From Planctomycetota bacterium (lineage in GTDB: Bacteria; Planctomycetota; Phycisphaerae; WQYP01): 15,053 nucleotides of DNA. Each line of letters starts with the position of its first letter. Position 1 is the first letter of the stretch. A program made the translations under genes and the position numbers. The notes beneath the pieces were generated by a model. The model searched no databases and was not told the origin of the DNA. It worked only from the letters and a program-made list of their open reading frames with translations. The stretch is from NCBI GenBank assembly GCA_021852225.1, contig JAJZOA010000198.1:1-15053 (forward strand), read 5' to 3'. Below are positions 379 to 15,053 of the stretch, piece after piece.

Positions 379-2052
379 TCAGGCCCGCACCCGGGTAAAC
401 GCCCGTCGTGGCATCAGACTGATACTGGCTGCACCGGTCATTATCAGCAGCCATGTGGCTGGCTCCGGAATGCTGCCGCCATTGGAAGTCGGCCCGGCCG
501 GGTCGACAAAATTAAATGCCAGTGCATAGGTTTCGGATGCGGATACAATGGATGTCCCGCCCAGCTTTATGACCTGCAGATCGTAACTTCCAGGTGCCAG
601 GTTGCTCACGGTTAATTGCTGCACATTGTCAATGGTGCTGAAACTGCCGGCGATTTGGCTTCCGCCGGAACTCATCAGATACAGCGACAAGTTGTTGATT
701 GCGGTCTGATTCACCTGCCGGTCCCAGGTCAGTGTGGCGGTCAGGTCATATGAATTGCCGCCTGTGCCCGGAAGGTTGAACAGATAATGTTGCGCCGCAT
801 CGAAGCTCGTGCCACTGGTGATGGTCGCCAGATTCCAGCCGTCAAAGCTCGTTTCGACGGGGCCGGCAGTGGTGGCGTACACCGGGGCGGCATTGACCGC
901 CTGTGTGGACGCTGCGCTGTAGGTGTGTTCGCCTGCGGCAAGCTGCTCGTAGGAATTGTAAACATTTACCACGCCTGCGCCATAACGCGGGTCCAGCGGA
1001 GTGTTGGAAAATGCTTTCGGGGCATTGTACGTGATCACGCCGCTGTTGACTGTATAGGAATTTGTCCAGCCGGTCGGCTTGACCGCGCCGTTTAGCAGCA
1101 GCGCCTTGACGGTACGAATATCGGTGGCCGCGACTTGCGTGCCGGCTCCGCCGATGCCTTCGTCGCCGGCCTGAATCAGCAAAGTCGCTGCGCCGGAAAC
1201 AATGGGCGTCGTATAACTTGTGTAGCTTCCGGGTGCGGTGATATCCGGCTTGCTGCGACCGTCGTAGGTCGGTCCCACGCCCGATCCGCCGTTCAGGGCG
1301 GCGACACCGATACCGTTATAGGCGTCCGCGGGCGGATTGACATAACTGACCGGACTGGTTCCGGTGGCATAACTGCTGCCGCCATCGCCGATGGCTGACA
1401 CAAACAATGTGTTGTGGCTCGCGGCATAATTGTCATAAAGGGAGTCCAGGTATTGAATTCCGTAGGCGTTTTCGCCCGGGAACACGAAACTCTGATTCAC
1501 CACCGCCGGGGCGGTGGTGTCGCCGGTCGGAATAAGGGTGTTTCCGTTGGCCATGGTCAGGTAGGCGTCATTGGCGTCGAACACATAAATCTGGCTGATC
1601 CCCGGCGAAATTCCGCCGGAGGTGCCGTAGAACAATTGACCCACATAGGTGGCGTGGCCGGATTCTTCCGACGTGTTCTGTGCGGTGGACACCGTCCCGG
1701 ACCCATTTACAAAGGTAAAAATCAACGGGGAAACGCCAGTTTGGGAAATGGTGGGTTCGAAATAGTCGCCGCCGGAAAGCGGAGCTTCAACCTGCGCCAC
1801 CGTCACACCCGCTCCGGTCAGGCTGGAATTGGCCGCCAGCAATTGTGGCAGGCCGATCTGCGTCTGGGTGGGGTTATAAGTGGTTCCCGCCGCAATAGTC
1901 AGTGGAGCGGTGGGAGCGGGGAGTGTGGTGGAAACCGTCGCGCCTGCGTGCGAGTTCAGGGCCAGCGCCGCGGCCCCTGCAATCGCCAGTGAGACAGCCG
2001 CGATTTTTCTCTCTCTCCACATCCGGACGTCCTTCCGGTGTGAAGCAATCAT
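379..2052 (-). CDS. PEP-CTERM exported protein with a subtilase-like (S8/S53-type) domain
   Basis: The product is 557 residues. It has an N-terminal signal segment (basic to residue 16, hydrophobic about 17-32, AGA cleavage site near 36-38). A subtilisin-fold region runs from about 75 to 325. The last 30 residues are a PEP-CTERM sorting signal: IPEPATWLL, a short hydrophobic stretch and a basic end (549-557). Such proteins are exported, cut by an exosortase and placed in the envelope or matrix. Protease-like landmarks are GVTVAQVEA (82-90), SGHATYVG (131-138), SAIGDGG (219-225), KPDITAPG (268-275) and TSYTTP (278-283). The Ser (279) and His (133) positions are kept, but the usual Asp is Glu89 and the oxyanion Asn position is Asp223. 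A beta-rich domain (about 400-515) resembles a pre-peptidase C-terminal or P-like domain. Two starts are equally good: ATG 2052 (GAGGA 7 bases upstream) and ATG 2022 (AAGGA 7 bases upstream). Whether it is an active protease is unknown. Confidence 0.85.
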   Translation of the reverse strand: MIASHRKDVRMWRERKIAAVSLAIAGAAALALNSHAGATVSTTLPAPTAPLTIAAGTTYNPTQTQIGLPQLLAANSSLTGAGVTVAQVEAPLSGGDYFEPTISQTGVSPLIFTFVNGSGTVSTAQNTSEESGHATYVGQLFYGTSGGISPGISQIYVFDANDAYLTMANGNTLIPTGDTTAPAVVNQSFVFPGENAYGIQYLDSLYDNYAASHNTLFVSAIGDGGSSYATGTSPVSYVNPPADAYNGIGVAALNGGSGVGPTYDGRSKPDITAPGSYTSYTTPIVSGAATLLIQAGDEGIGGAGTQVAATDIRTVKALLLNGAVKPTGWTNSYTVNSGVITYNAPKAFSNTPLDPRYGAGVVNVYNSYEQLAAGEHTYSAASTQAVNAAPVYATTAGPVETSFDGWNLATITSGTSFDAAQHYLFNLPGTGGNSYDLTATLTWDRQVNQTAINNLSLYLMSSGGSQIAGSFSTIDNVQQLTVSNLAPGSYDLQVIKLGGTSIVSASETYALAFNFVDPAGPTSNGGSIPEPATWLLIMTGAASISLMPRRAFTRVRA

Positions 2053-6242: not shown

Positions 6243-6767
6243 TTATAATGGCGGCAAATCTCTGTCCAGAATGCATTTGACAAGATGAAAAAGTTCCGGC
6301 ACAAGCGGCCCGGCCGTCGTAAAGTCGGAAAAATGGTGTTCGACCGGCGCTATGACGCGCGAGCCTGAGTCTTGCCACGGATATTCCGGATTGGGTCGAT
6401 CAAATCCGGCGAAGGACGGGGCTATTTTTTCGGTCAATTCGGCTAAGGGACGCAGCCTTTTCAATAGCGCTTTGTATCGGGCGGTGCAGTTGCCATAACC
6501 GAGGCTTTTCTGCCAGGCGGAGCTTTGCAGCGACGTGCGAACGAAACTTGCAAAGGCGGCGTGTGTCTTGGCGGGCCGACGGTTGGAGGTTATATCCATT
6601 TCATAGGCCCGCGCCAGCTTTTCGGTTGCCATTTGCAGGTAGTGCACCCAGTGGCAGGTCGGATTTCTGGTGTTACGCAGTTCCTGACAAAGAATAAAAT
6701 CGCTGCGGGCCTGCTTCAGAAATGCCTGTCGCATCGCCGCGCCGAGGGTTTCATCCGCTGACGTCAA
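6243..6767 (-). CDS. HEPN-like helical protein, second gene of a conserved small-gene pair
   Basis: The product is 174 residues and mostly helical. The block CHWVHYLQMATEKLARAYE (38-56) followed by KTHAAFASFVRTS (67-79) resembles HEPN-type proteins (ARSD...YLQ.A.EK), a fold found in nucleases and toxins. Two R-x(4-6)-H arrangements exist, R64-PAKT-H69 and R137-x6-H144, either of which could be the HEPN catalytic motif. Neither has the polar residue usually seen after the Arg, so catalysis is unproven. NPEYPW (126-131) looks like a family signature. Translation probably starts at TTG 6767: GGAGG lies seven bases upstream, and the start overlaps the end of the preceding gene by 17 bases, implying coupling. 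The in-frame ATG at 6734 has no ribosome site. With its partner it could be a toxin-antitoxin-like or regulatory module; no function is known to me. Confidence 0.7.
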   Translation of the reverse strand: MTSADETLGAAMRQAFLKQARSDFILCQELRNTRNPTCHWVHYLQMATEKLARAYEMDITSNRRPAKTHAAFASFVRTSLQSSAWQKSLGYGNCTARYKALLKRLRPLAELTEKIAPSFAGFDRPNPEYPWQDSGSRVIAPVEHHFSDFTTAGPLVPELFHLVKCILDRDLPPL

Positions 6768-7134
6768 CGGCCTTCCTCCAACTTCCCCAGGTGCTCGGCA
6801 GACGCAGTCGTCCTTTTTCCTCGGGTCGAATAAGGGCTATGGCCATTGGCAGGTCGAGCTCTTTTTCCGGGTCAGCGGGGAAGTGGTATGCATGGACATG
6901 TCCGTCGGCATTGGATGGGATGTCACCTGTAATCTCCACCAGCCGTATCTGTTTCTTGCTGGGGAACCACAGTACATGCTTGATGGATCGGTCCACTTTT
7001 CGGCTTGCACGGGCCAGCAAGCGCGCCTGTCGTTCGACGCTTTTGGGCGACGCTTCACCTTTTATTCCGTTGATTCTGCTCATAAAACTTAGTCTATCGC
7101 TGGGTTTCTTTCCATGCAACCGGGCAAGCTTCAC
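6751..7134 (-). CDS. Small conserved protein, first gene of the pair with the HEPN-like gene
   Basis: The product is 127 residues from GTG 7134, or 110 from ATG 7083. The first 50 residues are strongly basic. The conserved-looking part is IKHVLWFPSKKQIRLVEIT (51-69) and then PMAIALIRPEEKGRLRLP (96-113), followed by STWGSWRKAVDV. I recall small proteins with IALIRPEE and LPxxWGxW patterns next to HEPN-like genes in cyanobacteria, methanogens and planctomycetes, unnamed. The GTG is favoured by position: GTGA overlaps the transporter stop, with AAGGA just upstream at short spacing. The ATG has no ribosome site. There are no membrane or signal segments. Order (small basic protein first, HEPN-like protein second) and overlap resemble toxin-antitoxin operons, but which partner would be the toxin is not clear from sequence. 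Confidence 0.7.
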   Translation of the reverse strand: MKLARLHGKKPSDRLSFMSRINGIKGEASPKSVERQARLLARASRKVDRSIKHVLWFPSKKQIRLVEITGDIPSNADGHVHAYHFPADPEKELDLPMAIALIRPEEKGRLRLPSTWGSWRKAVDVSG

Positions 7135-8162
7135 CTATCCTTGGCGGGCAGGGAAATGGGGTCCATGTCCTCTGTCACAATAACCTTGGCGCGCGGGCGG
7201 GAAAGGGTTAACACCATGCCCGCCAGCAGAAGGGCTGAACCGAGCAGAAACCAGATGCCCGGCAGCCGCCGATTGAGGATCGCCTCCCACACCAGTGTCA
7301 GCGGATAGGCCGCATTGGTGAATGTAGCCACCCTCGATGGCGGCTGGCGCATCATGGACCAGTTGAAAAGAAAGAATACCAGTACGGCGACCACCACACT
7401 TAAATAAAACAAACCCACCCAGGAAGTCCATGAAATATGAGTCCATGCGACAGAAAATCCCTCCACGCCGACCAGCGGAATCGAGGCCAGCGTTCCGGCC
7501 AGAAATACCCAGAACTGCGTGGCCAGGCTGCCGTAGCGGTCATTGAGTGGTCGCGAAAATACCAGATAGCCGGACCAGGTCAGCGCCGCCAAAAGCAGCA
7601 GCAAATCGCCATGGAAAAACCGGCCGCGTAATTCCAGACCGGAGTGAATCAATATCGCCAGAACGCCTGCGGACGCCAGCACCGCCGCCAGAAAAACCCG
7701 GAGGCTCCATTTTTCCACGCCGATCAGACAGACCATAATTGTTACCAGCACCGGCGTGGTGGCGTAAAACATGGCCGAATGTGACGGATTGGCCAATGCC
7801 ACCCCGCCCCAGAATGCGAACTGGTTGATCGGAACACAGACCAGCCCCAGCAGCGTCACTCGCAAAATATCGCGGCGGCCCAGGCGCGGCAGTTTTCGTT
7901 TTATCCCCAGAAAGACACCCAGAATAAGGCTGGCGATGGCAAAGCGAAGCACGCCACCCAAGATCGGCGGAAAAGAGGCGACGGCTGCCTGAACCGCGAT
8001 GGGAGTAAATGATGCCAGCAGCGTAATAAGAAAAAGAACGGCAATATCCGCAGGACGGGCCGGGCCGGAAGCAACTGCCGTGCCCGATGCCGAAACGGTA
8101 TTTCCACCGGTTACCGGTTGGGGTGTGCGGTCTCCAGGAATGTCAGAACGTGTCCAGGCCAA
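7131..8162 (-). CDS. EamA/DMT-family transporter
   Basis: The product is 343 residues with about ten hydrophobic helices (roughly 39-62, 68-86, 100-118, 126-148, 154-172, 185-203, 214-232, 248-267, 277-296 and 303-320), arranged as two EamA repeats. Family features include PIAVQAAVASFPPILGGVLRF in helix 1-2, the conserved Asn-Gln-Phe near 113-115 and a second-half PSRVATFTNAAYPL loop. Members export amino acids, nucleotide sugars or other metabolites from the inner membrane; the substrate is not predictable. The only usual start codon before the first helix is TTG 8162, with AAGGA four bases upstream; it overlaps the carboxykinase end by 20 bases. Its own TGA overlaps the next GTG. The 38-residue polar N-terminus is longer than usual for the family. 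Confidence 0.88.
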   Translation of the reverse strand: MAWTRSDIPGDRTPQPVTGGNTVSASGTAVASGPARPADIAVLFLITLLASFTPIAVQAAVASFPPILGGVLRFAIASLILGVFLGIKRKLPRLGRRDILRVTLLGLVCVPINQFAFWGGVALANPSHSAMFYATTPVLVTIMVCLIGVEKWSLRVFLAAVLASAGVLAILIHSGLELRGRFFHGDLLLLLAALTWSGYLVFSRPLNDRYGSLATQFWVFLAGTLASIPLVGVEGFSVAWTHISWTSWVGLFYLSVVVAVLVFFLFNWSMMRQPPSRVATFTNAAYPLTLVWEAILNRRLPGIWFLLGSALLLAGMVLTLSRPRAKVIVTEDMDPISLPAKDR

Positions 8163-11100
8163 TCGTTCCTTCCAGACTCTTCAGATATTCCGCCGATTCG
8201 GCGCGCTGCAGTTGGGTTTGCGCCAGCGCCAGTCGTTCGGAAAGTTTCAGATTTTCCGCAACGCCATCATCGCGTAATTGGTGCATAAAATCGTGCAGGT
8301 ATTGAATGTGTCTCTTGTACAGATTGCTGTCGCACCTCTGTTTGTTGATCAGCCGTTGCCGGTACCAGTCGCTTTTCAAGAGGCTTTCCAGTGTGAACAG
8401 GCCGCGGATTTCCGGGTCGTGCACATTTTTGCCGGCGTAGTGGCCGTGCGCCATAATGTGCAGCAGTGCTTTCAGCGGCGGGCAGGCCCGATCAATGGAC
8501 CCATCTTCAAAATATTGCAGCGCCACCCGCTGCTGGGTTTCAGCGATATTCAACACGCCATCCACAAACAGGTCCATATCCTGGAGTTCCGGCTTGAGCA
8601 TCAGGGAATCAAAAATGCGTGACGGGTTGTCAAAAATTCTGCCCAGGAATATTCGCATGAAGCGCGATGTGACCCGATAGCCCAGGCGACTGGCCGGCAC
8701 ATGAACGCCGTTGTGCTGGAAATCTTCCAGTTTTTCCAGATAGCCACCGCCAATCAGGAACTGCGGATCGCGTTCTGCCGGCCCCATGCGGCACCAGAGT
8801 TCCGGAATAAGCAAACTGATGTCATGCCCCATTTTATACCGTGGGCCTACATGTCCCGCCGCGGTGGAAAAGCCAGCCAGTCCGGTCAGGATATAACTGA
8901 CCATCGCCGCATTCAGGTCTGCGGTGGTCAGCAGCGCATTGAAGGGGCCTTTGGTTAGCGCCCCTTCGGACCCGGCCCCCGTCGTGGATGGACTTTTGCC
9001 GGTCAGGCTGGAAATAAAATCCATGAAAAGTTCCGGCAGCTCCTGGTAGTGAATCGGATTATAAACCGCAAGCGAACGGATCGCCGCGGCCGCATCGGGC
9101 GGATTGTTCCGTCGGCCCAGCAGCACCGCATCAACGGGAAAGCTGACCGGCGTTTCCAGTGGAATTGCCCTCGCCAGACGATAGGCCATATTTGCCGCAT
9201 AGGTATCCCGTGGATTGGCCAGATCCGGCCGATATTGCAGATACCGCGGATTTTTAGTTCGTTCGCCATTGACCAGCCGCGGATGGGCGGAGGAAACCAC
9301 AAAACCCTGTCCCCGGCGGGCGGCATCACCCAGCAGATTGTGCATGGGGGGCGTATAGGCGTCAAATTCCGCCACGTTTTCCACAATGGCGCGTACGCCT
9401 TGTGGATCCAGCGGTTCAAAGTTGGAAATAAAGTTGTCCGACCGGGCCATATCAGCTTCTGTCTGACGGTCCAGTCCGGGAATGACCGCATCATCCGGGC
9501 GCTGAAACAGCCGCAGTTCACAATTTGTGACCAGTTTCACACTTGGTCCACTGGCGGCCAGCGGCTTAACGGACAACTGTCCGACGGGCGCGACAGTTGA
9601 TGCGGTAATGTCATCTTCCATCTGGACTTTTGCCGCCGGGAAAAAATCCTGTCTGACCTTGAACGTATTCCAGGCACCATTGGGCCGCAGGCCGACGCGC
9701 AGATAAGTTCCCGCGGCTTTGCGGTCATCCATTTTCAGTTCGTGCCCTGGTTCGCCATTGACAATATCCACCGAAAAATGGGTCCGCCAGTCCGGCCCCC
9801 ATTCGGGCTTGTATAAACGCTTGATCAAGAAAACCAGCGCCAGAATATCGCTGGGAATGGCGGCCAGCCAGCGGTTGTAGTCGTCGGTATATTCGTTGGA
9901 TGGCGTGAGCATCTTAATGACGCTTCCCAGCGATCGCGTGGCACCTAAAATTGGGCGGCTGGGCGTGTGGGCATAATGGGCCGGCTCGTGCCCCGGCTTC
10001 CATCGAATGGAATGATCTTTATCCAGAATGGCCTGCACCTGGTCGAGGTCATGAGTCAGATTCGCCACATAGATCGGGCCAAAAATCATATAATCAGAAA
10101 TACTTTTGCTGATCTCGCTTTTTCCGCCGCCGCTGACGGTGCACGGCTTGTGGCAGAAAACACCGCGCGCCGCGGTTACCACAATGCGGAACCGGTTGGA
10201 CCCCGGATGTTTGTGCACAAACAACTTCTGGCCAGAAGGGGTCAGATAAAGCTTGTCCGCCAGCAGCGGCAGTGACCGGGGTTTTTCATCCAGGTCCCAG
10301 ATAATGCGCGTGGTATGCAGGTCCATGTGTGCGTTTTCAGGGATATAAATGATATCGGGAAACTGCCGGTCTACGCCGTAACCATCGGGATGAATGTCCA
10401 TCAGTGGGCCGTAGGCTTTGGCGACATCGGCGAAGGTTCGCCCGTTCCAGTATTTTTCGTGTGGAGTGAATTCAGTGCCCAGGCTGTAACTTGGAAACGC
10501 CACCGCGCCCCCGGCATGTTCTTCTTCCGCATTGCCGAGCAGATTGGCGGCAAAACTGATCTGGGTTTTGACTTCCTTTTTGCAATACCCGAAATAATTG
10601 TCTGCAATAATGGTTACCATGACTCCCTGCGGACCCCGACAGGTCAATTTAAACGCCGATCCGCCATTGTAATATTCCTCCGGATTTTTCCAGCACATTC
10701 CATCGCGCTGCTGGCGCGGTGTCGCGGCATTCCATGCGGGCAGGCCCAACTGTTTTTTAGTCAATTTCGTCAGGTGGGGGGCCAGAATGACGCAGCCAGT
10801 ATGCCCGGTCCAGTGGGCTACATCCAGACCGGCGTCATTTTCCGGCAGAACCGGGTCACCGGCATTGCCAAAAATGGATTCCACAAAATCCAGATTGCTG
10901 ACCAGCGAACCCGGTGCAAAAAAATGAATTTCCATCGTCTTTTGCGGGCTTAAACCGAAAACTTCCGGTACCACAATGGGCCGCAGCATAAGTGTGCAAA
11001 AAATTCCCGCCGCGCGACCGCCTTTGGCGGTGTATGGCAGCGTCAGCAAGTCCGTCGGTGGATTGACCGCATGTTCAAATATCCTCGCGTAAACCAATGG

Positions 11101-11592
11101 CGGCACCGCGATTTTGTCCGCTGGAACCGGCAGGCCGCAGTCTGCAATATGAAATGTTCCCTGGGTGGTGCGGCGGTCGTTGGCGGGATTATGCAAAACG
11201 CCGTTGGCCACCCGATAGGAATTCAGCAGCGGACTGGCAAAATAGTCCTCTCCCTTTGGCAGCGACAGTTCCCGTGCTACCCCGGTGCGATGCAGACTAA
11301 GGCAGCGGTCCGGCAGCCGAAGGGGCTCTTTTGCGCCGAGGGGACCTAGAATGTCATTTAAAAATGATTCAATCCGCCGGTCTATCGGGTTGCGATAGTC
11401 TTTCAGAAGGCGGTTCTTCTGCTGAAAGTTCGCCAGCAAGCCGGAGGCGATATCGTCAAGCTCCGCTCCCAGCGCATCGCTGCTGTCCGTAGGTAGGCCC
11501 AGCGCTTTTAGCCGAAGGTGAATATACCGGTGTATGGCCGCATGATTTTCCGACGAATTTAGATCAGGGGACGGCAATTGGGTACGTGTCAT
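8143..11592 (-). CDS. PPi-type phosphoenolpyruvate carboxykinase (probable, EC 4.1.1.38)
   Basis: The product is 1149 residues, about 130 kDa. That is twice the size of ATP- or GTP-dependent PEPCK and the size described for the pyrophosphate-dependent enzymes of Entamoeba and Propionibacterium. Those convert oxaloacetate and PPi into phosphoenolpyruvate, CO2 and phosphate, reversibly, in the cytoplasm. Blocks I recognise from that family are SLVSNLDFVESIFGNAGDP (229-247), WTGHTGCVILAPHLT (261-275), ADNYFGYCKKEVKTQIS (330-346), the P-loop-like CHKPCTVSGGGKSEISKSIS (480-499), DDITASTVAP (660-669), LTGKSPSTTGAGSEGALTKG (863-882) and GHDISLLIPELWCRMGP (922-938). The identification is from memory of these blocks plus length; no search was run. 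ATG 11592 has AGG eight bases upstream and a good promoter. No frameshift or stop interrupts it. It is the first gene of a four-gene overlapping operon. Confidence 0.75.
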   Translation of the reverse strand: MTRTQLPSPDLNSSENHAAIHRYIHLRLKALGLPTDSSDALGAELDDIASGLLANFQQKNRLLKDYRNPIDRRIESFLNDILGPLGAKEPLRLPDRCLSLHRTGVARELSLPKGEDYFASPLLNSYRVANGVLHNPANDRRTTQGTFHIADCGLPVPADKIAVPPLVYARIFEHAVNPPTDLLTLPYTAKGGRAAGIFCTLMLRPIVVPEVFGLSPQKTMEIHFFAPGSLVSNLDFVESIFGNAGDPVLPENDAGLDVAHWTGHTGCVILAPHLTKLTKKQLGLPAWNAATPRQQRDGMCWKNPEEYYNGGSAFKLTCRGPQGVMVTIIADNYFGYCKKEVKTQISFAANLLGNAEEEHAGGAVAFPSYSLGTEFTPHEKYWNGRTFADVAKAYGPLMDIHPDGYGVDRQFPDIIYIPENAHMDLHTTRIIWDLDEKPRSLPLLADKLYLTPSGQKLFVHKHPGSNRFRIVVTAARGVFCHKPCTVSGGGKSEISKSISDYMIFGPIYVANLTHDLDQVQAILDKDHSIRWKPGHEPAHYAHTPSRPILGATRSLGSVIKMLTPSNEYTDDYNRWLAAIPSDILALVFLIKRLYKPEWGPDWRTHFSVDIVNGEPGHELKMDDRKAAGTYLRVGLRPNGAWNTFKVRQDFFPAAKVQMEDDITASTVAPVGQLSVKPLAASGPSVKLVTNCELRLFQRPDDAVIPGLDRQTEADMARSDNFISNFEPLDPQGVRAIVENVAEFDAYTPPMHNLLGDAARRGQGFVVSSAHPRLVNGERTKNPRYLQYRPDLANPRDTYAANMAYRLARAIPLETPVSFPVDAVLLGRRNNPPDAAAAIRSLAVYNPIHYQELPELFMDFISSLTGKSPSTTGAGSEGALTKGPFNALLTTADLNAAMVSYILTGLAGFSTAAGHVGPRYKMGHDISLLIPELWCRMGPAERDPQFLIGGGYLEKLEDFQHNGVHVPASRLGYRVTSRFMRIFLGRIFDNPSRIFDSLMLKPELQDMDLFVDGVLNIAETQQRVALQYFEDGSIDRACPPLKALLHIMAHGHYAGKNVHDPEIRGLFTLESLLKSDWYRQRLINKQRCDSNLYKRHIQYLHDFMHQLRDDGVAENLKLSERLALAQTQLQRAESAEYLKSLEGTIGLDTF

Positions 11593-11781: not shown

Positions 11782-13569
11782 TTACTGAGCCTGTTCGGAC
11801 ATCAGCATGAACAGGGGTGCCAGCGCCCGACCTTGGTTGACCGTATCTTCCAGCGTGGCCATCGGTACGAAGGCCTTGATTCTCATGCGGTTGCCTTGGG
11901 CGCTGGCGCTGATCACCATCGGTGCAAAACGCCGGCCCAGAACCAGTCCATTGGTCGCTGGCTGTGGCAGTCCGTTGGCCTTTCGCAGATTGGCCGCCAT
12001 GTCTGAAAGCAGGCGATTGATAAGAAGATAGGAAACACAAGTGGCTTGAGGCAGTACATGCTTTTGTGCCAATTGAATGGAGGGGCTTAAGCCCAGCGCA
12101 TTGACGCGGGTTTTCGAGGCGGCAATCAGCGCGGGCATTTTGGCCGCTGGCATGCTCATGGTCCAGACCGCTTGGGTTTTGCTTAATGTCCCAAAGTATT
12201 CCACTATTTCCGGTTGACCGAAGACGGTTTTGAACATCGAGGCCACCGAATGATTTCCCGGACTCGGTTTCATCTCAATCCGTGTCATCGAAACATTTCC
12301 AACGGAAATCGCTTTGGGTTTATAGGTGATCGCAAAAGGTTTCGGACCGGCCGCATTTGGAGCGTTCATCATCTTGAGCACTTTCGGCATAAAGCCTTCC
12401 AGTGACTTTATGATGCCAGTCGCATCGGTATACGTTCCAAGTCCCACTGCACTGATGCCGCCACCATGGCGCGAACTTAGCATCACACTGCTTGACTCCC
12501 GGACATTGGCTACAAATTGACCGTAGATGGCCAGATCTTTTTCCAGGTTCTTTTCGATGGGGCCTAAGGCACCGGTGGTTTGCCGCGGCCTTTCGAGAGT
12601 CTTAAGCCACTGCGATAACGCCAGTCCATTGACGCTGTATGCCTGAGCTACCACGTATCGTCCGCCCGGCAGGCCCGCAAGGGGCGCTTTACCCATCGCG
12701 GACTGTGCGGCCAGCAACTGGCCCATTGGTGTGCCCGGCTGCATATCGCCAATTTCCTGCAGGCTGATTCCCCGGTTGGTAATGTGCACCCCTATAAATT
12801 GCCGCTGCGAATTGCCCAGAAATTGTTCCATTAACCGGACGAAAATCAATTGCACGGCCGCGGACTGTAACTGCGAAGGATCCCCGGCTTCAAAGCCCAG
12901 CATCATTTGCGATTCGGCGCTTAACCCGGCGCTGGCAATGGGGCCAAGAACTTTCATGTTCAGATACGTACTGACGTCGCTGCCGCTTACGCCCTTCATA
13001 TAGGTTGGACTTAGTGTGCCCGAAAGCATCACCTTGTTTGCCATAAATGCGATCAGTGCGTCTTTTAATGGCGAAAACAGGGCGTAGCCGCCCTGCTGTG
13101 CAAGAAAAATTGGCGTGCCGGTTGGATCCTGACCGGCGCTGATGCCATTTTGTGGAGCGGCGCATTGATAAGCCTTTTCCGCCGCAGCATAGTTCGTGAC
13201 TGGAACCATCGCCACCATCCATTGTGATGTGGGCTGCAAATTTCCTTTGGGCGGCGGCAACATCGCAATGCCCGCCGGTCGGTTGGCATCGAATATGCCC
13301 GTCAAACCCATGCTCTGTTCGCTGGAAGCAAGAGGGTCTTGGGAAACGGGGATTTTAAGTTGGCCAGCGATCTGCACAATTTTCCGGTCCAGAGCGGCCG
13401 GGTCGCGGAAAATAATGACCGCGCTGCTGTCCGCTGGCGACATGGCACAAATTTTCATAGCCGGGTTTGCCGCCCCGTGGGCTGACACCGCAAGCCCCAT
13501 CAGGCCGAGTGCGGAAAGTCCGGGTGCCAGTTTCTTTGCCAGACGCGTGGTCAGAGATAATTTTCCCAT
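11782..13569 (-). CDS. Exported protein of unknown function
   Basis: The product is 595 residues from ATG 13569, chosen because AAGGA lies seven bases upstream and a classical signal peptide follows (basic 3-13, hydrophobic about 16-30, AHGA cleavage site near 30-33). The frame is open a further 109 codons upstream, but that part crosses the promoter and looks non-coding. The mature protein begins with SPADSSAVIIFRDPAALDRK (44-63), and has a stretch LTGIFDANRPAGIAMLP and repeated strand-helix elements. This resembles large planctomycete exported proteins of the type ADAxAVVxxxDxxALD, which may relate to DUF3352; I am not sure of that link. There are no protease, lipoprotein or sugar-binding signatures, and no C-terminal anchor. 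It sits between alaS and the carboxykinase operon with promoters on both sides, so it is probably transcribed alone. Confidence 0.8.
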   Translation of the reverse strand: MGKLSLTTRLAKKLAPGLSALGLMGLAVSAHGAANPAMKICAMSPADSSAVIIFRDPAALDRKIVQIAGQLKIPVSQDPLASSEQSMGLTGIFDANRPAGIAMLPPPKGNLQPTSQWMVAMVPVTNYAAAEKAYQCAAPQNGISAGQDPTGTPIFLAQQGGYALFSPLKDALIAFMANKVMLSGTLSPTYMKGVSGSDVSTYLNMKVLGPIASAGLSAESQMMLGFEAGDPSQLQSAAVQLIFVRLMEQFLGNSQRQFIGVHITNRGISLQEIGDMQPGTPMGQLLAAQSAMGKAPLAGLPGGRYVVAQAYSVNGLALSQWLKTLERPRQTTGALGPIEKNLEKDLAIYGQFVANVRESSSVMLSSRHGGGISAVGLGTYTDATGIIKSLEGFMPKVLKMMNAPNAAGPKPFAITYKPKAISVGNVSMTRIEMKPSPGNHSVASMFKTVFGQPEIVEYFGTLSKTQAVWTMSMPAAKMPALIAASKTRVNALGLSPSIQLAQKHVLPQATCVSYLLINRLLSDMAANLRKANGLPQPATNGLVLGRRFAPMVISASAQGNRMRIKAFVPMATLEDTVNQGRALAPLFMLMSEQAQ

Positions 13570-13729
13570 GGTCGGTTCCTTTCCAACGCCGCCCGCCCGT
13601 CCGGTCGCCGCACGGGATCGGATGGCGGTAGATAATGTGTCCCGTAATCTGGCCGCACGAACGCCATCGCACTTTTCGAAAGCTCGGTTAAAGCCTGGTG
13701 CGCCGGGAACCCTGCTGAAGTTGGTGAGA

Positions 13730-13759
13730 ATTGTATCATGGATGATCTGATTTTGACAA
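13730..13759 (-). promoter_or_regulatory. Sigma-70-like promoter of the exported-protein gene
   Basis: The minus strand reads TTGTCA (13759-13754), an 18-base spacer and TACAAT (13735-13730), each five of six to consensus. The start would be near 13723, giving a leader of about 155 bases before the ATG at 13569. No known riboswitch pattern is recognised in that leader. Confidence 0.5.
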
Positions 13760-13843
13760 TTCGCCCGAAATCGGCGCGTGAACCAGCACTTGAGTCTCTG
13801 TTTGCATTTGTTTACAGCCCGTCGCCGCCCCTTGACTGCGAAT

Positions 13844-15053
13844 TTAGGCCAGTTTGCCGACGGCAAAATCACGGCCGGTCTCCAAAGCTCTTTCAATGCC
13901 GGCTACATCTTTGCCGCCGGCCATGGCCAGTTGCGGCCGTCCCCCGCCACTTCCCCCCACCAGCGGGGCAATATGTTTTACCCAATCACCGGCCTTTAAT
14001 TTGTCAATCAGGGCGTCGCTGACAGAAGCCAGCAAATTGACCTTGGGCGGTTGCGCCTTGCCATCCTTATCGGTCTGAATATGTGTGCCGACCAGCAGCA
14101 TCGCCATGGAATCCTGCCCGAGCTTTTTCTTCAGACTGTCCATGACCGATCGCAGCGCATCCGGGTCGCCCGTGGAAAGCTGACCGACAATCAGCTTTGC
14201 CGGGCCGATTGTCTGTATCGTGGAAACCAGCCTGTCCACATCACTGGAAAAGTCGTGGCCGTCGGTATTTCCGCCCGCGTGCTTTTTCTGTTCCTGTTTC
14301 AGTTTTTCCTGAACCGCAGCCTGTGTATGCAAGGCCAGCCGGCGGGCCATCATGGGCAGGCCCGGTTCGCGGGCGACTTTTTGAATTTCCGCCAGAAGAG
14401 CGGGCAGTTCACTGACCGGCGCATGGGCCGCCTTATCCACCAGTGTCATCACATTGCCAGCCTGTCGCTGGGCGTCACGGGCGGCCTGACCCGTAAGGGC
14501 CACAACGCGCCGCACTCCTTTGCTGACAGATTCTTCGCCAATCAGGACAAAGGCCTCCGCCTGGCCGGTGTGGGCCAAATGGGTGCCGCCGCAGAATTCG
14601 ATGGAATATTGCCGCCAATTCGGATTCGCCGGGTCCGCCAGCAGGTCTTCCACGGGGCGGCCGATGCTGACCACTCGAACCATGGGCGGATATTTTTCGC
14701 CAAAAATAGCCCGCAGCGAAAAAATGTCGCGTCCTTTTTCCGCTGGTACCACGGCGGTGTAAACTGGCATATCCGCTTCAATGGCTTTTGCCACCAGCGA
14801 TTCAACATGGGCAAGCTGGTCATCTGAAACAGGTACGGGCTGGATAAAATCGAACCGCAGCTTTTGCGCATCTACCAGCGAACCCTTTTGCTGCACATGG
14901 TCGCCAAGCACCTGCCGGAGCGCCCAGTTAAGCAGGTGGGTGGACGTATGATTCTTTTCCGTGCGCTGCCGGGCCGAGAACACTTCCGCGGTAACCGAGT
15001 CGCCTACGGTGAGTTTGCCTGTTTTAATATGGCCGATATGCAGAACAGATCGG
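13844..15053 (-). CDS. alaS: Alanyl-tRNA synthetase, C-terminal part (partial, 5' end outside window)
   Basis: The frame is open from the right edge (first full codon at 15052) to TAA at 13846-13844, about 402 codons of a protein usually near 870-900. AlaRS charges tRNA-Ala and clears mis-charged Ser and Gly. The editing domain is present with all four zinc-site residues: the two His of NHTSTHLLN (codons at 14950 and 14938) and the Cys and His of CGGTH (14593 to 14579). The C-terminal DHHA1/C-Ala domain ends with the glycine-rich GGSGGGRPQLAMAGG, typical of the family. The aminoacylation core is outside the window. A GTG at 14983 is internal, not a start: HIGHIKTGKLTVGDSV just upstream is standard AlaRS sequence. 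Confidence 0.95.
   Translation of the reverse strand, partial: RSVLHIGHIKTGKLTVGDSVTAEVFSARQRTEKNHTSTHLLNWALRQVLGDHVQQKGSLVDAQKLRFDFIQPVPVSDDQLAHVESLVAKAIEADMPVYTAVVPAEKGRDIFSLRAIFGEKYPPMVRVVSIGRPVEDLLADPANPNWRQYSIEFCGGTHLAHTGQAEAFVLIGEESVSKGVRRVVALTGQAARDAQRQAGNVMTLVDKAAHAPVSELPALLAEIQKVAREPGLPMMARRLALHTQAAVQEKLKQEQKKHAGGNTDGHDFSSDVDRLVSTIQTIGPAKLIVGQLSTGDPDALRSVMDSLKKKLGQDSMAMLLVGTHIQTDKDGKAQPPKVNLLASVSDALIDKLKAGDWVKHIAPLVGGSGGGRPQLAMAGGKDVAGIERALETGRDFAVGKLA

Follow-up and report, generated by a model that had tools for sequence, protein, structure and literature searches.

A pair of overlapping minus-strand genes in a 15,053-nucleotide stretch of DNA from a Planctomycetota bacterium (contig JAJZOA010000198.1 of assembly GCA_021852225.1; the whole stretch is referred to below as the window) most likely acts like a module of a HEPN protein and a minimal nucleotidyltransferase (MNT). 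In structural terms, the pair very probably combines a HEPN protein with a degenerate nucleotidyltransferase, whose fold is known by prediction, in a conserved and unnamed two-gene family. In functional terms, we favour a HEPN/MNT-like toxin-antitoxin module of two genes over several other readings and give it about an even chance. The HEPN gene (6243..6767, minus strand), the proposed effector or toxin, encodes 174 residues from a TTG start at 6767-6765, and the partner gene (6751..7083, minus strand), the proposed antitoxin, encodes 110 residues from ATG 7083 in a predicted degenerate MNT fold. The two genes share 17 bases (6751..6767, minus strand), and a GGAGG (6775..6779, read 6779-6775 on the minus strand) lies within the partner gene 7 nucleotides before the TTG, where from its sequence it would serve as the ribosome-binding site of the HEPN gene. 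The overlap, the GGAGG-driven TTG start and the coupled layout of toxin-antitoxin type had all been described in an initial annotation of this DNA and are borne out; that observation is confirmed as a whole, and the interpretation placed on it is partly supported. A longer form of the partner open reading frame (ORF; 6751-7134, minus strand, 127 residues) begins at an in-frame GTG 7134, a codon that shares bases with the stop of the EamA gene upstream; ATG 7083 is the likelier start because of the lengths of the relatives.

The 174-residue protein was predicted to adopt the helical fold of HEPN proteins, and AbiV (9bj7 and 9bj6) and AF0298 (2hsb) were found among its structure matches. Alignment with known HEPN domains using hhalign gave an E-value of 1.1e-5 and a probability of 82, reached by 0 of 100 shuffles, and spanned helices 1-2 and continued past H69. 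Control proteins were taken from 25 of 30 HEPN loci and 23 of 30 MNT loci (L099 and L106 were unreadable); L087 and L102, which had been misread, and L096, L097 and L098, which represent another HEPN type, were dropped from the hhalign controls, leaving 20 and 21. The Pfam HEPN domain was also detected at E<=1 in 8 of 48 family members (best 8.4e-4). By predicted fold and sequence profile, the protein thus belongs to the HEPN superfamily, as the initial annotation had suggested; the segments YLQMATEKLARAY, IALIRPEE and WGSW that it had singled out are all present in the pair.

Conserved residues of the HEPN family were determined from an alignment of 117 rows (116 distinct proteins, the window's own being entered twice). 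The Ex3[KR] motif described for HEPN families (Anantharaman et al. 2013; PMC3710099) is present as E49-K50-x2-R/K53 (6609..6623, minus strand), with E49 in 117/117 rows, K50 in 115/117 and K or R at 53 in 116/117. H69 (6561..6563, minus strand) is kept in 116 of 117 rows. Residues 126-131, NPEYPW (6375..6392, minus strand), were placed by eye at the position of the RYP of ordinary PF05168 HEPN proteins, with Arg replaced by Glu: E128 occurs in 115/117 rows (R in the other two), Y129 in 116/117 and P130 in 117/117, and RYP is present in the true PF05168 control proteins. Two distant members, L175 and L185, carry RYP instead of EYP and may be intermediates toward ordinary PF05168 HEPN proteins. 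A charge swap, from Arg to Glu in HEPN and from Asp to Arg in the partner, was considered and its partner side was dropped, as the register at the DxD position differs between two alignments.

R-x(4-6)-H, usual though not universal in the HEPN superfamily, is not conserved here. The two arrangements pointed out in the initial annotation, R64-H69 and R137-H144, do exist in the window's protein; of their residues H69 alone is conserved, R64 being found in 23, R137 in 10 and H144 in 31 of the 117 rows, so that the standard HEPN ribonuclease (RNase) site is absent from the family. Counted at any position, R-x(4-6)-H is present in 75 of the 117 rows, and shuffled sequences give 79.7 +/- 5.1, so its frequency is at the level of chance. 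An ordinary HEPN RNase toxin using this site is accordingly the least credible of the readings, and the site itself is refuted at the family level. In AbiV/AF0298-type HEPN proteins the motif His is typically lost and another conserved His is located N-terminally, in a proposed alternative site (PMC3710099). H69 fits this alternative His and the loss of the Arg does not, which makes a catalytic activity of the present protein possible, judging from its conserved residues.

The partner had been described as a small basic protein, which is incomplete, since its predicted structure has a fold like that of Pol-beta-like nucleotidyltransferases. The catalytic motif of such proteins is absent: GSx10DxD was found in 0 of 149 partner-family proteins and in 21 of 21 true MNTs (the latter having been selected by PF01909). 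In the partner, the second beta strand, which reads IRLVEIT (residues 46-52; 6928..6948, minus strand), lies where the DxD of a true MNT would be, and two residues of the strand, R47 and E50, are invariant in the 77 sequences of an alignment that took in 74 of the 120 partner proteins listed. Altogether 1196 partner proteins were counted, and the 120 listed are without a Pfam domain. Searches with the Pfam and NCBIfam models did not yield a match of the partner to PF01909 (MNT), and none of the 38 partner places in 20 genomes appears among the PF01909 matches of those genomes when the lists are compared. The partner is therefore predicted to be a protein of MNT fold without the catalytic motif and outside PF01909, which would make the pair a derived relative of the HEPN/MNT module.

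The pairing of the two genes is fixed across distant bacteria, in agreement with the initial annotation. The partner gene was located directly upstream on the same strand in all 24 loci found through HEPN, as confirmed with a hidden Markov model, and in the 20 genomes behind these loci all 35 HEPN matches adjoin one of 38 partner matches (lists compared by hand). The three surplus partner matches are a tandem second partner (G007, L008), a partner with only a sub-threshold HEPN remnant next to it (G004:C89, L056) and a lone partner fragment (G018:C239, L070). In L008 (5319-6504), two tandem partner genes precede one HEPN gene. Distances among HEPN proteins and among partners co-vary in 59 thinned pairs, from which L006, L055 and L192 were left out (r 0.58, a value reached in 0 of 2000 permutations). 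Among the 60 entries listed for the surroundings of the pair, each flanking stretch is shared by at most 4 of the 24 loci, and several of these stretches are ORFs antisense to the pair. The dN/dS ratios (nonsynonymous to synonymous substitution rates) of six relative pairs per gene range from 0.02 to 0.21, by which both families look like real genes.

The spread of the pair is patchy. Among 392 genomes of the Planctomycetota, including that of L014, the HEPN model matched 7 genomes and the partner model 6. All of these 6 carry both genes side by side, HEPN being broken in G011 and G191; the remaining HEPN match, in G320, is a marginal fragment for which a second model gave no confirmation. In four other phyla, HEPN-model matches were obtained in 3/82, 17/282, 14/201 and 5/288 genomes, seeds included. 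These frequencies are lower bounds because the genome searches score the best few candidates per genome. Ten partner matches occur in a single genome of phylum KSB1 (G004, the genome of L004) and seven HEPN matches in a second genome of this phylum (G492), several HEPN genes of the two being decayed; in G004 a Pfam HEPN match also lies about 1.4 kb ahead of one pair (C123:34695-37274).

Decay of the pair is one-sided. A total of 87 distinct loci were classified by script and then re-read by hand. The script returned 63 loci with both genes intact, 16 with an intact partner and a broken HEPN gene, 3 with HEPN intact and the partner absent, 2 with HEPN broken and the partner absent, and 1 each with the partner broken and HEPN intact, with the partner broken and HEPN absent, and with both broken. 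On re-reading, L008, which had been scored as broken, was found to hold two intact tandem partners, giving 64 intact pairs by model, and L023 and L183 proved to be contig ends, reducing the 16 loci to 14 in 8 genomes (the first copy of L006, L014, L017, L056, L058, L059, L062, L136, L150, L154, L173, L203, L206 and L207). In L167 the HEPN match ends at model position 103 of 169 and a C-terminal partner remnant lies upstream (E 0.034), so both genes are decayed there. L177 and L201, which are distant members, have an upstream ORF of partner size with an LFEV motif, recognized by eye and missed by the partner model (E 1.2 and 2.5); they are counted provisionally as two intact pairs. L176 is a contig end, L137 and L070 are fragments, and L156 is broken in both genes. 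The final tally therefore has 64 pairs intact by the model and a further 2 judged intact by eye, with 14 loci in which HEPN is broken and the partner intact against 0 of the reverse kind. If breakage followed gene length, the probability of 14 of 14 would be about 9e-4, or about 0.02 for 8 of 8 when each genome is counted once (hand calculation). Since most loci were retrieved by the HEPN model, intact HEPN genes were more readily detected, a bias that works against the observed result; L056 was retrieved solely by way of its partner. Assembly errors may account for some of the single stops, but would hardly explain the large internal losses in G004. The pattern is that expected if an intact HEPN protein is not tolerable without its partner.

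In published HEPN/MNT pairs, the MNT neutralizes HEPN by transfer of adenosine monophosphate (AMP) through GSx10DxD (PMC7641770; PMC11586414). According to PMC7641770, GSx10DxD is kept in the Class I and Class II antitoxins, Class II pairs (PF05168 HEPN) have no RX4H and retain the Tyr and the MNT motif, and the partner gene comes first in the Class I pairs that were tested. The present pair resembles Class II (HepT/MntA) in its PF05168-type HEPN without RX4H, the conserved Tyr and a predicted nucleotidyltransferase-fold partner. The partner always comes first here and mostly does so there, as in the same genomes neighbouring PF01909 and PF05168 genes have the MNT first in 36 of 41 cases and the reverse in 5 (hand count). 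The pair differs from Class II in that the partner is without GSx10DxD, RYP is replaced by EYP in 115 of 117 HEPN rows, and neither of the window's two proteins reaches a Pfam cut-off. Compared with Class I (SO_3166/SO_3165; type VII), both the RX4HXY of HEPN and the GSx10DxD of the partner are missing. Adjacent HEPN and MNT-fold genes, as in type VII systems, are found here, the MNT fold of the partner being predicted; judged by its motifs, the pair would nevertheless not be one of the type VII systems as defined by enzymatic neutralization. On the HEPN side, AbiV/AF0298-type proteins are similar in the typical loss of the motif His, in the N-terminal position of the other conserved His (PMC3710099) and in the structure matches given above, and are unlike the present family in keeping the basic motif residue that is Glu here.

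In the mechanism we propose, the downstream HEPN protein would be the harmful component, presumably binding or cutting RNA through a non-standard site (E49/K50/K53, H69 and E128/Y129). The upstream partner would restrain it by binding, with no transfer of AMP to HEPN, as the partner has lost GSx10DxD and an antitoxin that AMPylates the toxin is unlikely without it. Through the overlapping start, translation of the two genes would be coupled and the partner always made together with HEPN or earlier. We tentatively suggest, with a confidence well short of even, that the pair represents a third, undescribed branch of HEPN/MNT modules, in which a binding-only pseudo-nucleotidyltransferase antitoxin accompanies a HEPN toxin whose rebuilt site, composed of the residues just named, replaces Rx4-6H. 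Such a branch would mean that, within one fold pair, evolution had replaced enzymatic neutralization (type VII) by neutralization through binding (type II); its conservation without either catalytic motif and with the genes still together would reveal a role of the pair besides AMP transfer, and 1196 partner proteins with their HEPN neighbours would gain a testable function.

Among the other explanations, a two-subunit binding or sensing complex without a toxin, whose cleft would accept a nucleotide or small molecule and which would signal or regulate like the halves of kanamycin nucleotidyltransferase, is possible and rather doubtful. It predicts neither the 14-to-0 breakage of HEPN beside an intact partner nor a patchy spread with ten partner copies in one genome. 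Kanamycin nucleotidyltransferase, ANT(4'), is one chain, whereas two genes are involved here, and its catalytic motif is absent from the pair. Some toxins have nucleotidyltransferase folds, which speaks for a reversal of roles, with the partner as toxin and HEPN as antitoxin, and so does the original prediction of the MNT as the toxin of HEPN/MNT pairs (PMC3710099). This reversal, which we consider very improbable, would however predict intact HEPN genes beside broken partners, and these make up 0 of 87 loci, against 14 the other way; the partner is also without a catalytic motif. A partner that remains active as a nucleotidyltransferase, using other residues to modify Y129 of HEPN in the manner supposed for Class II HEPN/MNT pairs, is unlikely, if less so. 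The conservation of Y129, the Tyr without RX4H in Class II HEPN (PMC7641770) and the invariant R47 and E50 in the strand that bears DxD in MNTs would all agree with it; the motif is nevertheless missing from all 149 partners, and in a true MNT even a D-to-E change in DxD eliminates modification (PMC7641770).

Both families are unnamed in the sources examined, as had been claimed. The window's two proteins passed no Pfam or NCBIfam cut-off and had no PADLOC match at E<=1, and neither they nor two relatives of each matched PHROGs at E<=0.1. Relatives of both proteins gave, Pfam HEPN excepted, scattered weak family matches only, including PADLOC matches scattered among 48 HEPN relatives, the best of them in 2 (E 0.0026); matches to Glyco_trans_4_2 and RecA were rejected as weak, below cut-off and confined to 1/48 and 1/27 members. 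A sequence search of solved structures retrieved neither a HEPN nor a nucleotidyltransferase match. No plasmid match was obtained for the window's two proteins and no plasmid or phage match for the HEPN protein of L004; in IMG/VR the window's HEPN alone retrieved no relative and the HEPN alignment retrieved one, L024. A mobile-element home for the pair was rejected on these searches. No title or abstract start among the open-access papers searched describes the pair, which would be a derived relative of HEPN/MNT rather than an unrelated cassette.

The setting of the pair in the window is ordinary chromosomal. An EamA transporter gene precedes it and a methyltransferase gene follows, and genes for an RNase III and a pseudouridine synthase lie nearby, together with a stretch carrying alanyl/threonyl-transfer RNA synthetase domains. 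A promoter and terminator scan returned about as many sites as shuffled sequence (2 versus 1.9 and 5 versus 3.8 +/- 2.3). Elsewhere on the minus strand, an ORF of 1149 residues upstream of the EamA gene (8143-11592) has no Pfam, NCBIfam or PADLOC match at E<=1, and one of 704 residues (11782-13896) has no Pfam match at E<=1. A 557-residue protein (379-2052, minus strand) has an end resembling PEP-CTERM, with a Pfam match below cut-off (E 0.012), and its middle resembles, by eye, a subtilisin-type peptidase with altered motifs.
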